Source: Oxalicibacterium flavum (GTDB lineage: Bacteria; Pseudomonadota; Gammaproteobacteria; Burkholderiales; Burkholderiaceae_D). From it: a DNA stretch of 64,000 nt. Shown piece after piece: positions 19,341 to 50,660 of this stretch. Both the position numbers and the translations under genes were made by a program. Below the pieces are notes generated by a model. The model saw nothing but the letters and a program-made list of their open reading frames with translations, did not search any database and was not told where the DNA came from. Position 1 is the first letter of the stretch. Every line of letters begins with the position of its first letter. Location: positions 186,001 through 250,000 of the forward strand of contig NZ_BMCG01000006.1 in NCBI RefSeq assembly GCF_014635065.1. Direction: 5' to 3'.

Positions 19341-19445
19341 CGCCGCGTAGTCCTTGCGCGCCGGCAGGATTTTTCCAGCCGTGATAAATTCTCTGTTGCC
19401 GATGAACGTAGTGCGCTGAACAGCAGCATTGCACTTCATCGGTTT

Positions 19446-19612
19446 CGTTCTCGGGGCGGGGCGAGATTCCCCACCGGCGGTGATGATGCGCAAGCATCCA
19501 GCCCGCGAGCGCCTGACGAAGCTTCCGCCTGCTCCCGCAGGCCGCCTCGGCAGGGTCAGCAGATCTGGTGCGATTCCAGGGCCGACGGTCATAGTCCGGA
19601 TGATAGAGAACG
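19446..19612 (+). promoter_or_regulatory. FMN riboswitch (RFN element)
   Basis: All conserved RFN blocks are present in order: GGGGCGGGGCGAGATTCCCC, ACCGGCGGT, AGCCCGCGAGC, GGTGCGATTCC, CCGACGGTCATAGTCCGGATG. The closing P1 helix is CGTTCTC (19446-19452) with GAGAACG (19606-19612). It senses flavin mononucleotide and normally shuts off expression when FMN is plentiful. No clear intrinsic terminator separates it from the lumazine synthase start at 19718, so control is probably translational or Rho-dependent (inference). Confidence 0.97.
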
Positions 19613-19717
19613 GGAAGCCTCATCGCGACGCGGCGCCTGCCGCCGGTCGTCTTGTCATTCCCGCTTGATATTCCACACCCCCTGTTATTGTCATCTGCAA
19701 CAGGAGCTTTATCCATC

Positions 19718-25634: not shown

Positions 25635-25730
25635 ACGTCTTTCTAGCGACGATCGGGTATGCTGACAGCCGGACCACGATGCAACATTCCCGCGTGCGCA
25701 TGAGCCGCGCGGCATCCAACGAGTGTGAAC

Positions 25731-26729
25731 ATGAGCAACGATTACGAGCAGGACAGGCAGGTTTCTTCCGAACGCCCGGCAACGCCGCGCAAGGAAGGGT
25801 GGGAGCGCGAGGTGCTGGAAAAGCTGGCTTTCGCGACCATCAAGGAGCAGCGCGCCCGGCGGCGCTGGGGCATCTTCTTCAAATTGGCGGTGTTGAGCCT
25901 GATCGTGTTCGCGATCTGGACCGGCATGACTACCACTGGCGACAACGCGCAGAATGTCGGTCCGCACACGGCGCTGATCAAGATCGACGGCACCATCGAA
26001 GCCAAGGGTGCCGGCGACGCGGAAAGCGTCATCTCTGCGCTGACCAAGGCCTACAACGACGCGAGCTCGGTTGGCATCATCCTGCAGATCAACAGCCCTG
26101 GCGGCAGCCCGGTGCAGGCCGGAATCATCAACGACGAGATCACGCGCCTGCGCGCCGAGAATCCGAAGAAGCCGATCTACGTGGTGGTCGGCGAGGTCTG
26201 CGCATCGGGCGGCTACTACATCGCGGCTGCGGCTGATCGCATCTATGTCAACAAGGCCAGCATCGTCGGTTCGATCGGTGTGCTGATGGATGGCTTCGGT
26301 TTCACCGGCGCGATGGAGAAGATCGGCGTCGAGCGCCGTCTGCTGACGGCCGGCGAAAACAAGGGTTTCATGGACCCGTTCAGTCCGCAGTCGGAGACGC
26401 AGAAGATCTATGCGCAGGACATGCTTAACGAGATCCACCAGCAGTTCATCGACGTGGTGCGCAAGGGACGTGGCGCGCGCCTGCGTGAAACGCCGGAAAC
26501 CTTCTCCGGCCTGGTGTGGAGCGGCGCGAAGTCGGTGGAACTCGGCTTGGCGGATGGCTTCGGCACGGTGGAAAGCGTGGCACGCGAGCAGTTCAAGTCA
26601 ACCAACATCGTTGACTACACGCAGCGCGAAGGCATCTCCGACCGTGTGCTGAGGAAATTCGGCGCGGCAGCCGGCGCGGCCGCCATCAAGGCAGCGCTGC
26701 CGGAACTGGTGACGCCCTCGCTCAAGTAA
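25731..26729 (+). CDS. S49 peptidase, SppA-type signal peptide peptidase
   Basis: A 332-residue membrane serine protease that degrades cleaved signal peptides. One membrane segment (about residues 46-66) anchors an S49 domain, with INSPGG near residue 120 and the nucleophile Ser159 in CASGGYYIAAAAD, followed by GSIGVL. The length is that of the short, single-domain SppA form; the catalytic lysine is expected in the second half as in that class. Start ATG 25731; the GTG two codons upstream is possible. Followed by a probable small RNA gene. Confidence 0.9.
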   Translation: MSNDYEQDRQVSSERPATPRKEGWEREVLEKLAFATIKEQRARRRWGIFFKLAVLSLIVFAIWTGMTTTGDNAQNVGPHTALIKIDGTIEAKGAGDAESVISALTKAYNDASSVGIILQINSPGGSPVQAGIINDEITRLRAENPKKPIYVVVGEVCASGGYYIAAAADRIYVNKASIVGSIGVLMDGFGFTGAMEKIGVERRLLTAGENKGFMDPFSPQSETQKIYAQDMLNEIHQQFIDVVRKGRGARLRETPETFSGLVWSGAKSVELGLADGFGTVESVAREQFKSTNIVDYTQREGISDRVLRKFGAAAGAAAIKAALPELVTPSLK

Positions 26730-26756
26730 TGCAATGGAAAAACGCGGTGCCAACCC

Positions 26757-26784
26757 TTGACCTTTTGGCACGTCGTTCTATAGT
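26757..26784 (+). promoter_or_regulatory. Sigma-70 promoter of the putative small RNA
   Basis: -35 TTGACC (26757-26762), 16-bp spacer, -10 TATAGT (26779-26784). The predicted start is near G26791. No protein-coding gene lies downstream on this strand before the terminator at 26907. Confidence 0.7.
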
Positions 26785-26790
26785 GGAATC

Positions 26791-26941
26791 GTCACCGTCA
26801 TCAAGAGATGAGGGATAAAGATATACGCAACATGGGGTTGTCTATATTCATGTCACGGTGACATCAGGGTCCATGACCCATCCAGATGCCTTCTAGGAAG
26901 GCAGGCAAAGCGGCGATGCAATATCGCCGCTTTGCGTTTTT
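26791..26941 (+). ncRNA. Putative structured small RNA, about 150 nt
   Basis: A complete transcription unit without a protein. After a good promoter come an outer stem GTCACCGT (26791-26798) with ACGGTGAC (26855-26862); inside it a hairpin ATATA/TATAT plus CAAC/GTTG (26821-26847); then GGGTC-CAT-GACCC (26867-26879); then GCCTTC-TAG-GAAGGC (26888-26902); then the intrinsic terminator. I could not match it to a known RNA family. A nine-codon frame from ATG 26832 has no properly placed ribosome binding site. It sits between sppA (+) and the 3' end of the methyltransferase gene (-). Confidence 0.6.
26907..26941 (+). terminator. Intrinsic terminator of the putative small RNA
   Basis: AAAGCGGCGAT and ATCGCCGCTTT pair perfectly over 11 bp with a 5-nt loop, followed by GCG and five T. 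Confidence 0.9.
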
Positions 26942-26993
26942 ATGGGCTGCTTTTTATTGCGTCGAGACGTCGAACGGCAGATGCAGCGTCGCC

Positions 26994-27746
26994 TTAACCC
27001 GCGAGCAGCAGAAAGACCGTCGGCTTCTTGTGGAAGTCCGGTCCTTTTCCCTTGGCAAGATCGTCTTTCCAGCGTGCCGCGTTCTGGGTTTTGATTGTCT
27101 CCGATGGCAGGGTCAGATCGGTGGCAACGCATATCAAGGTCTGCGCCTGACAGGTCTGGGCCAGTGTTTCGAGCATGGCGGCGTTGCGGTAGGGCGTTTC
27201 GATGAAGAACTGGGTCTGCTTTTCCGCGCGCGCCCGGTTTTCCAGTTGCTGGATGTGCTTGATGCGCGCCGCGTGCTCGACCGGCAGATAGCCGTTGAAG
27301 GCGAAATTCTGGCCGCTCAGGCCGCTGGCCATGATGGCCAGCAACAGGGAGGATGGCCCGACCAGCGGTTTCACAGTGATCCCGCGCGCGTGCGCCAGCC
27401 GCACGAGGTTGGTGCCCGGATCGGCCACGGCCGGCACGCCGGCTTCGGAGATCAGGCCGCCGTCGGCGCCAGCCAGGATGGGTTCCAGCAGTGTCGGCAA
27501 GGCCTTGGCGTCGGTGTTGACGTTGAGTTCCGCGATACGGATTTCCTGTAGCGGCTGCGCCAGCGGCACGTTCGCTGCCACCAGCTTCAGGAAAGCGCGC
27601 GTGGTCTTCGCATTTTCCGCGACGAAATAGCCGAGGCTAGCCGTAATCGCCTGCACCTCAGCGGGAATGATGTGGGCCAGCGGATCGCTGCCGGTGTCGG
27701 CAGCATTGCCCAGCGTGTTGGGGATCAGGTAGAGAACGCCGGCCAT
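26994..27746 (-). CDS. SAM-dependent methyltransferase, tetrapyrrole methylase (RsmI-like) family
   Basis: A 250-residue protein of the TP_methylase superfamily, which includes RsmI (2'-O-methylation of C1402 in 16S rRNA). Visible motifs are LYLIPNTLGN at the start, ISEAGVPAVADPGTNLVR near residues 90-108 and PLVGPSSLLLAIMASGLSGQ near 115-135. It differs from canonical RsmI in its start and is one of two such proteins typical of Betaproteobacteria; a separate true rsmI elsewhere is likely. Its start (ATG 27746) lies 2 bp beyond the maf stop, so they form an operon. The exact target is unknown. Confidence 0.85.
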   Translation of the reverse strand: MAGVLYLIPNTLGNAADTGSDPLAHIIPAEVQAITASLGYFVAENAKTTRAFLKLVAANVPLAQPLQEIRIAELNVNTDAKALPTLLEPILAGADGGLISEAGVPAVADPGTNLVRLAHARGITVKPLVGPSSLLLAIMASGLSGQNFAFNGYLPVEHAARIKHIQQLENRARAEKQTQFFIETPYRNAAMLETLAQTCQAQTLICVATDLTLPSETIKTQNAARWKDDLAKGKGPDFHKKPTVFLLLAG

Positions 27747-27748
27747 GC

Positions 27749-28360
27749 TCAATCCCGGAAGAAGGCGACGCCGGCACGGCGCAGCATCGAGGTCAGCGCG
27801 ATCAGCGGCAGGCCGGTGAGGGCGGTTGGGTCGCTGCTTTCCACGCTGGAAAGAATGGCAATGCCGAGTCCTTCGTTCTTGGCGCTGCCGGCGCAATCGT
27901 AGGGCTGCTCGGCGCGCAGGTAGGCGTCGAGCTCGGCGTCCGGCAGATCGCGGAAGGTGACGCGGGTGCGAATGTTGTCAATCTGAAGCGGCGCCGCGGC
28001 ATCCGTCCTGTTGTCCAGCAGGCACAAGGCGGTATGGAAGACGACCGTGCGGCCGCGCATGGTCTGCAATTGCTGCAAGGCGTTGGCGTGGTTGCCGGGC
28101 TTGCCGATCTGCCTGCCGTCCAGTGTGGCGACCTGGTCGGAGCCAATCACAAGGGTATCGGGCATTTGCGCAGCGATCGCTGCAGCCTTGGCCTGGGCCA
28201 GCCGCAATGCGGTGGCTTCGGGCTGTTCGCCGGCCAAGGGCGTCTCGTCGATATCGGGCGTCATGACGTCGAAGGGAAGGCGCAGGCGCGACAGCAATTC
28301 CCTGCGATAGATCGAACTGGAACCCAGAATCAGGCGCGGTGGTGTGCTGGAAGAAGACAT
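27749..28360 (-). CDS. Maf-family nucleotide pyrophosphatase (YceF type)
   Basis: House-cleaning NTP pyrophosphatase; the YceF branch prefers 7-methyl-GTP. The 203-residue protein opens with LILGSSSIYRRELLSRL (Maf signature), then DIDET, and VIGSDQVATLDG with the catalytic Asp, followed by KPG. It is the first gene of a two-gene minus-strand unit with the methyltransferase, and is divergent from yceD-rpmF, the same arrangement as yceF beside yceD-rpmF in E. coli, which supports the YceF assignment. Confidence 0.92.
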   Translation of the reverse strand: MSSSSTPPRLILGSSSIYRRELLSRLRLPFDVMTPDIDETPLAGEQPEATALRLAQAKAAAIAAQMPDTLVIGSDQVATLDGRQIGKPGNHANALQQLQTMRGRTVVFHTALCLLDNRTDAAAPLQIDNIRTRVTFRDLPDAELDAYLRAEQPYDCAGSAKNEGLGIAILSSVESSDPTALTGLPLIALTSMLRRAGVAFFRD

Positions 28361-50426: not shown

Positions 50427-50502
50427 GCGGGAGTAGCTCAGTTGGTAGAGCGATACCTTGCCAAGGTATAGGTCGAGAGTTCGAGACTCTTCTCCCGCTC
50501 CA
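50427..50502 (+). tRNA. tRNA-Gly (anticodon GCC), copy 1
   Basis: 76 nt with encoded CCA. Acceptor GCGGGAG/CTCCCGC, anticodon loop TTGCCAA giving GCC, T loop TTCGAGA. Identical to the copy at 50585. Confidence 0.98.
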
Positions 50503-50584: not shown

Positions 50585-50660
50585 GCGGGAGTAGCTCAGT
50601 TGGTAGAGCGATACCTTGCCAAGGTATAGGTCGAGAGTTCGAGACTCTTCTCCCGCTCCA
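50585..50660 (+). tRNA. tRNA-Gly (anticodon GCC), copy 2
   Basis: 76 nt, base-for-base identical to the copy at 50427, with encoded CCA. Separated from the first copy by a terminator-like hairpin. Confidence 0.98.

Follow-up and report, generated by a model that had tools for sequence, protein, structure and literature searches.

A Predicted Small Structured RNA Gene Downstream of sppA in Oxalicibacterium flavum and Its Relatives in the Oxalobacteraceae

In Oxalicibacterium flavum, positions 26791-26942 of the window (the whole stretch of 64,000 nucleotides that was analysed) carry a putative independent gene for a small structured RNA, a reading supported by sequence comparison, with its own promoter, a row of hairpins, and an intrinsic terminator. 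The same comparisons support the view that the RNA belongs to a family which appears, so far, only in Oxalobacteraceae. Transcription probably starts at about G26791, and the likeliest role is that of a trans-acting regulatory RNA, which is favoured because it is the commonest role of such genes. The joint reading, namely, an independent structured sRNA gene of an Oxalobacteraceae family which is transcribed from about G26791 and acts in trans, is considered moderately probable. Two traits make the family notable: its conservation, which is wide within Oxalobacteraceae, and its exchangeable 5′ domain.

Transcription Unit and Predicted Fold

The stretch 26757-26942 of the window is a small transcription unit on the forward strand, consisting of a promoter, a predicted structured RNA of about 145–150 nt (26791-26942), and a terminator. 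The promoter is of the sigma70 type (26757-26784, + strand): TTGACC (26757-26762) is separated by 16 nt from TATAGT (26779-26784), as the initial annotation had stated, and the predicted start, G26791, lies 7 nt past the −10 hexamer. It is the single promoter-like site in 26600-27100. Since shuffled sequences contain 0.4 such sites on average, the site is unremarkable by itself, and the striking part is its conservation in relatives, where similar hexamers and the 16-nt spacer are kept. The unit closes with an intrinsic terminator (26905-26942, + strand), whose stem pairs 26905-26918 with 26922-26935, with a G-U pair innermost, and is followed by GTTTTTA. A terminator of 11 pairs at 26907-26933 had been described; its presence is confirmed, but the stem actually comprises 14 pairs over 26905-26935.

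The neighbouring genes, both outside the RNA, are also those described earlier. Upstream on the same strand is an sppA-like gene of peptidase family S49 (25725-26729, + strand; PF01343, E 2.6e-37; TIGR00706 score under cut-off), whose stop codon precedes the predicted RNA start by 62 nt. Downstream, on the opposite strand and therefore convergent, is an RsmI-like (TP_methylase) methyltransferase gene (26994-27749, − strand), for which PF00590 scores barely above cut-off and TIGR00096 under it. Elsewhere the window holds an FMN riboswitch (19443-19615, 107.1 bits) and two tRNA genes of equal score (50427-50499 and 50585-50657, with 85 nt between them).

The minimum free energy (MFE) of the predicted RNA is −66.9 kcal/mol, whereas 200 dinucleotide shuffles average −39.6 ± 4.2 (z −6.59), none of them folding as well. 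When the terminator is removed, z is −4.29, and again none of 200 shuffles is equal. The initial proposal of a structured RNA of about 150 nt is thereby borne out. The closing stem P1 has its 5′ arm, GTCACCGT (26791-26798, + strand), beginning at the predicted start and its 3′ arm, ACGGTGAC, at 26855-26862 (+ strand). These are the arms of the long-range stem noticed initially, and they carry compensatory changes in the window's genus. Within the P1 domain, the MFE and centroid folds predict a hairpin P1a, CATC-AAGA-GATG (26799-26810, + strand), and a candidate internal hairpin, P1b (26813-26849, + strand), has possible pairs in two registers, as judged from its sequence arms and the fold. For the latter, the initial annotation had given ATATA-CAAC/GTTG-TATAT; the arms exist, ATATA and CAAC (26821-26831) being complementary to GTTG and TATAT (26837-26847), but both folds use another register. 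Both folds retain P1, GGGTC/GACCC, P4, and the terminator, and add the CATC/GATG hairpin. The folds of several genus members show internal hairpins of different sequence.

Two short hairpins follow, both of which had been recognized before. P3, GGGTC-CAT-GACCC (26867-26879, + strand; arms 26867-26871 and 26875-26879), occupies the place of a hairpin that is typically GAG..CTC in other genera. P4, TGCCTTC-TAG-GAAGGCA (26887-26903, + strand; arms 26887-26893 and 26897-26903), has 7 pairs when the outer T-A is included. In the genus, P4 is 100% paired, with double changes at 4 of its 7 pairs.

Layout and Covariation in Relatives

For comparison, 170 stretches downstream of sppA were taken (some genomes twice), 143 with the terminator core and 27 without it; L040, L064, and L067, among the latter, appear to contain the RNA. 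The set for promoter and 5′ end was obtained by removing 21 of the 143 (8 judged RNA-less, 13 with a wrong start), which left 122, of which 71 are non-redundant. The set for the 3′ domain was obtained by removing 10, which left 133, of which 72 are non-redundant.

The general layout is a promoter with a 16-nt spacer, a start that coincides with the 5′ arm of P1, a variable 5′ domain, P2, P3, P4, and the terminator. P2 is typically CCGCATC..GATGCGG in most relatives; none was seen in the window's genus. TTG lies exactly 16 nt ahead of the −10 hexamer in 66 of the 71 RNAs, a count that is partly circular, as the starts come from a promoter scan and the 13 loci with a misplaced start had been removed. 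The agreement of start and P1 in relatives is free of this circularity.

The 5′ domain is of several types. The motif GGRGG stands at a near-constant distance from the 5′ end of the RNA in L026, L031, L071, L082, L128, L149, L151, and similar members, and by eye it often precedes GAUAUA. The Noviherbaspirillum type (L025, L027, L030, L033, L039, L055, L059, L108) seems by eye to have a 5′ domain of its own, with UUUCGAUUCU/UUUCGAUCCU ... GGAAAAACU in most members, which differs from both the GGRGG type and the window type.

Covariation was counted in a family alignment, A1, over the structure from P2 to the terminator, against 500 shuffles and against slid versions of the structure. A1 holds 58 of the 72 sequences and omits rows that align poorly or are near duplicates. 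Standard pairs make up 84.8% in A1, as compared to 76.0% when shuffled and 39–53% when slid. There are 203 double-changed cells against 79 in shuffles, and in none of the five measures do any of the 500 shuffles score as high. Both sides have changed in at least one sequence at 30 of the 32 pairs. The weak spots are P4 (63% paired) and P3 (77%), whose inner pairs are often broken; this weakness is tentatively put down to the alignment. Shuffles leave the relatedness of the sequences in; slid versions keep it too and score far lower. The tested structures were drawn from single sequences (L128 for the family, L012 for the genus), which gives them an advantage over the slid versions.

In the genus alignment A2, of 12 sequences, P1, P4, and the terminator were counted; P3 was excluded because MAFFT misplaces its 5′ arms, and the P1 3′ arm of L022 is misplaced as well. 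Over these stems 97.4% of positions are paired, with 28 double-changed cells against 10.6 in shuffles. P1 is 90.6% paired, with both sides changed at 4 of 8 pairs, while P4 and the terminator are 100% paired. The measure of further pair types is not above shuffles in A2 (171 of 500). The initial annotation had named, as a result that would count against it, stems that are not conserved and lack compensatory changes; family and genus counts alike give the opposite on both points.

P1 was also assessed without alignment, by comparing each RNA's own arm with arms from other species (71 RNAs, 4136 foreign arms). The own arm pairs at −9.8 kcal/mol and the foreign ones at −6.9, with a quarter of the 4136 equally good. 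For each of the 9 members of the genus, no more than 5 of the 64–68 foreign arms match the pairing of the own arm. Over all 71 RNAs, the own arm is better than 96% of shuffled arms in 33 only. The signal stands out for the window's genus, for the Noviherbaspirillum type, and for the greater part of the Massilia/Duganella/Janthinobacterium type; by this method it is unclear in several clades, for example, those of L024, L034, L041, and the L026-L038 type. When the terminator is left out, 33 of the 71 RNAs reach a fold z below −2 and 38 do not (mean −1.9).

Distribution

BLAST with the window's DNA finds matches in 8 of 60 genomes, its own included, of which the short ones in G014 and G055 are probably spurious; matches in so few genomes suggest that the RNA sequence changes fast. 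Downstream of sppA, the majority of the first 30 loci nevertheless show the shared layout, which L035 clearly lacks. The initial annotation had proposed a comparison with related Oxalobacteraceae, and the unit is indeed found in much of the family.

At E 0.01, the model R1 has matches in 160 of 195 family genomes. Only matches of at least 46 bits were counted, because chance terminators reach about 38 bits; these occur in 118 of the 195 genomes, the window's own included, wherever in the genome they lie. Of 300 genomes sampled from the order, with members of the family among them, R1 matches 103 at E 0.01, and none outside the family exceeds 37.9 bits. Several of the outside matches fall on both strands at once, like terminators, and all of them are treated as chance.

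The named loci compared, 80 in all, were those with the closest SppA, and 29 of them have a training row in R1; in 73 of the 80 the RNA follows sppA on the same strand. These include Janthinobacterium, Massilia, Duganella, Rugamonas, Undibacterium, Noviherbaspirillum, Herminiimonas, and Oxalicibacterium, with Oxalicibacterium faecigallinarum as the closest named relative of the window. No match was found at L112, L114, L115, and L119 (L114 and L115 are Herbaspirillum), and at the other RNA-less loci, L136, L140, and L161, the sequence ends soon after sppA.

Removal of L078 and the 8 genus rows from A1 gives alignment A3, and the held-out model R2, of 49 sequences, excludes the window's genus. 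R2 gives the window a score of 39.8 bits (E 3.8e-7 within 108 kb), which barely exceeds that of chance terminators in hundreds of genomes (37.9 bits under R1). It also finds all 11 other genus loci, at 29.7–49.3 bits, whereas opposite-strand terminators score up to 30.8 bits; the lowest of the loci, L022 (29.7 bits), falls below that terminator. As these held-out scores are near those of chance terminators, homology leans also on position, promoter, and the order of the parts. The set L232-L241, which lies outside training, scores 36.5–92.1 bits.

Independence from Neighbouring Genes

At E 1e-60, sppA was not found in G077, G103, G139, and G152 (one genus) or in G072, and the RNA is present in all of them despite this. 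In these genomes it follows homologues of the rluC and HAD genes found in the window, together with a gene that is presumably Rieske-like. The methyltransferase gene adjoins the RNA in G072; the stretches of G077, G103, and G139 do not show it, and the contig of G152 ends about 350 nt past the RNA. In 10 of the 13 genomes of the window's genus, a Rieske-like gene also immediately precedes sppA; none was found in the present genome (window 25635-25724), nor in G008 or G004.

The RNA occurs at other places too. In G124, the copy L237 (3048-3162, − strand) lies in a contig stretch without this gene group, beside a gene taken to resemble a pseudouridine synthase. In G128, a second copy, L238 (328-442, − strand), lies on another contig, near a gene assumed to be recQ-like. 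Both are draft genomes, and misbinning may account for these placements. Among the loci L232-L235, which come from the genus of G077, G103, G139, and G152, L234 has an opposite-strand gene after the RNA that presumably is similar to a tRNA 2-selenouridine synthase.

Of the 73 named loci with the RNA, 12 have the methyltransferase gene downstream, always convergent, and in the fetched downstream stretch of the other 61 it was not found. This result indicates that downstream gene order changed in the Massilia/Duganella/Janthinobacterium/Undibacterium part of the family (L116-L181). Since the RNA is kept where no sppA was found, at other places, and mostly where the methyltransferase gene was not seen, it belongs to neither neighbour and serves neither of them as a leader, attenuator, or 3′ UTR.

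Possible Function and Alternative Explanations

As a trans-acting regulator, the RNA would be transcribed from its own promoter at about G26791, and P1 would enclose the variable 5′ domain. Binding of mRNAs (or of a protein) might occur through the loops and this fast-changing domain, while the 3′ hairpins and the terminator would supply stability. Hfq-dependent sRNAs have a long U tail after the terminator, of about 7 or more. The longest T run after the terminator stem is 1–5 in all 71 RNAs, 5 in the window, and extension of the stem into A-T pairs hides Ts. An anti-Shine-Dalgarno seed in P3-P4 was also considered and is unsupported (own −7.52 as compared to −7.47 shuffled; 1 of 71 RNAs).

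The RNA could instead act via ribosomes or an RNA-binding protein rather than through mRNA pairing, with GGRGG occupying the 3′ end of 16S rRNA or CsrA, a reading regarded as unlikely. GGRGG occurs within nt ~9–65 in 38 of the 71 RNAs, where shuffles give an expected 9.2, and 37 of these 38 have it at nt 14–21; moreover, the duplex with the 16S 3′ end beats shuffles at p ≤ 0.05 in 22 of 71. However, the motif is absent in all 9 genus members of the 71 and in the Noviherbaspirillum type, and the duplex of the window RNA with the same 16S end has p 0.19. CsrB/RsmZ-type RNAs carry many GGA motifs in hairpin loops, and the window RNA, on direct reading, has two GGA, far below RNAs of the CsrB type. 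Of all features of the wider family, GGRGG is the most unusual; it is a lead and not an explanation of the window copy. A narrower form, in which the RNA in much of the family would control translation as a ribosome decoy whose Shine-Dalgarno-like 5′ loop sits on the 16S 3′ end, the loop having given way to a different 5′ domain in lineages like the window's genus, is distinctly improbable.

It is very improbable that the RNA is a short mRNA encoding a small protein or has a dual function. By reading, the Herminiimonas-type members (L015-L023) have an ATG frame, MQQRLQ..., after GGAG/AAGG at RNA nt ~28–90, and a closed ATG frame of at least 10 codons is found in 44 of 71 RNAs; the MQQRLQ... 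frame is, however, not shared with L012-L014, its length and end vary among relatives (by reading), and the stem changes are compensatory.

To a similarly small degree, the region might be an elaborate terminator between two convergent genes, with the hairpins being passive. The A-tract on the 5′ side of the terminator stem and the T-tract on its 3′ side could let it act both ways, and the methyltransferase gene is convergent in 30 of 30 of the first loci compared. Against this, a promoter of fixed spacing and covarying upstream hairpins are unnecessary for termination, and the RNA persists beside other neighbours, the methyltransferase gene being unseen downstream in most named loci, as given above.

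That the RNA is a 3′ UTR element of the sppA mRNA, or is derived from its 3′ end, would fit the shared strand, the short distance from the stop codon, and the prevailing position downstream of sppA, but is scarcely credible given its own conserved promoter and its retention where no sppA was found and at other places. A riboswitch, attenuator, or leader is rejected, because the downstream gene in the window is convergent. A mobile element was rejected as well, since a search of 72,556 plasmid and 50,697 phage records gave no match.

As a structured RNA which many Oxalobacteraceae keep and for which Rfam has no family, it is a candidate regulator ready for testing. The family is defined by an alignment and a model, and the changing 5′ domain on a steadier 3′ frame offers a natural series in which the functional part may be located.

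Comparison with Known RNAs

The initial annotation could place the RNA in no known family, and the Rfam search, run on the window region and 26 related loci, likewise gave no match above chance. The window region yielded two chance alignments only, with mir-2756 and SR1 (E 2.7 each). Ten related loci had no match up to E 0.5, and 16 further loci gave two sub-threshold matches, both at L087 and overlapping the RNA region: BSnc120 on the RNA strand (22.5 of 114 bits) and CRISPR-DR30 on the other strand (25.4 of 50 bits). Chance is taken to explain all of these alignments.

Literature searches on Oxalobacteraceae, sppA, and betaproteobacterial sRNA found no description of the RNA; coverage was partial, and an earlier description is possible. 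Searches on Herminiimonas arsenicoxydans and on Janthinobacterium/Massilia/Duganella sRNA returned only works unrelated by title, and the term "Oxalobacteraceae-1" gave none among the matches listed. Two papers on Herbaspirillum sRNA do not contain "sppA" in the portions of main text consulted (PMC7011215, PMC6337395).

Among known RNAs of betaproteobacteria, the family RF02278 (ncS27 and ncS62 of Burkholderia cenocepacia, with the related S17 of Bordetella) is likewise intergenic, terminator-bearing, and hairpin-rich. According to the parts of the reports consulted, ncS27 has 92 nt, ncS62 57 nt, and S17S about 70 nt, and their CU-rich regions are predicted to pair with ribosome binding sites (PMC5688073, PMC11722255). 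The window RNA differs in being longer, in its 5′ closing stem, and in having no anti-Shine-Dalgarno excess, as no CU-rich region of this kind exceeds shuffles in P3-P4 (1 of 71). In the window region RF02278 gives nothing up to E 5, and in the 26 related loci nothing up to E 0.5.

The antisense sRNA SR1 (RF02376) gives a sub-threshold alignment that covers the whole unit, terminator included; its score is 13.8 bits, where the gathering score is 45 (E 2.7), and it is attributed to chance. The many GGA motifs of CsrB/RsmZ-type RNAs are not found in the window RNA, which has the two mentioned above. 6S RNA (RF00013) is of similar size and has a terminal closing stem. It is absent among window-region matches up to E 5, and the genome's own 6S RNA lies elsewhere (G000:C3:436619-436798, 70.9 bits).

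Trans-encoded bacterial sRNAs are, as a rule, intergenic and lineage-restricted, with a sigma70 promoter, a length of about 100–200 nt, and an intrinsic terminator. Set beside them, the present family of small RNAs, which is real but has no entry in Rfam, is ordinary in kind.
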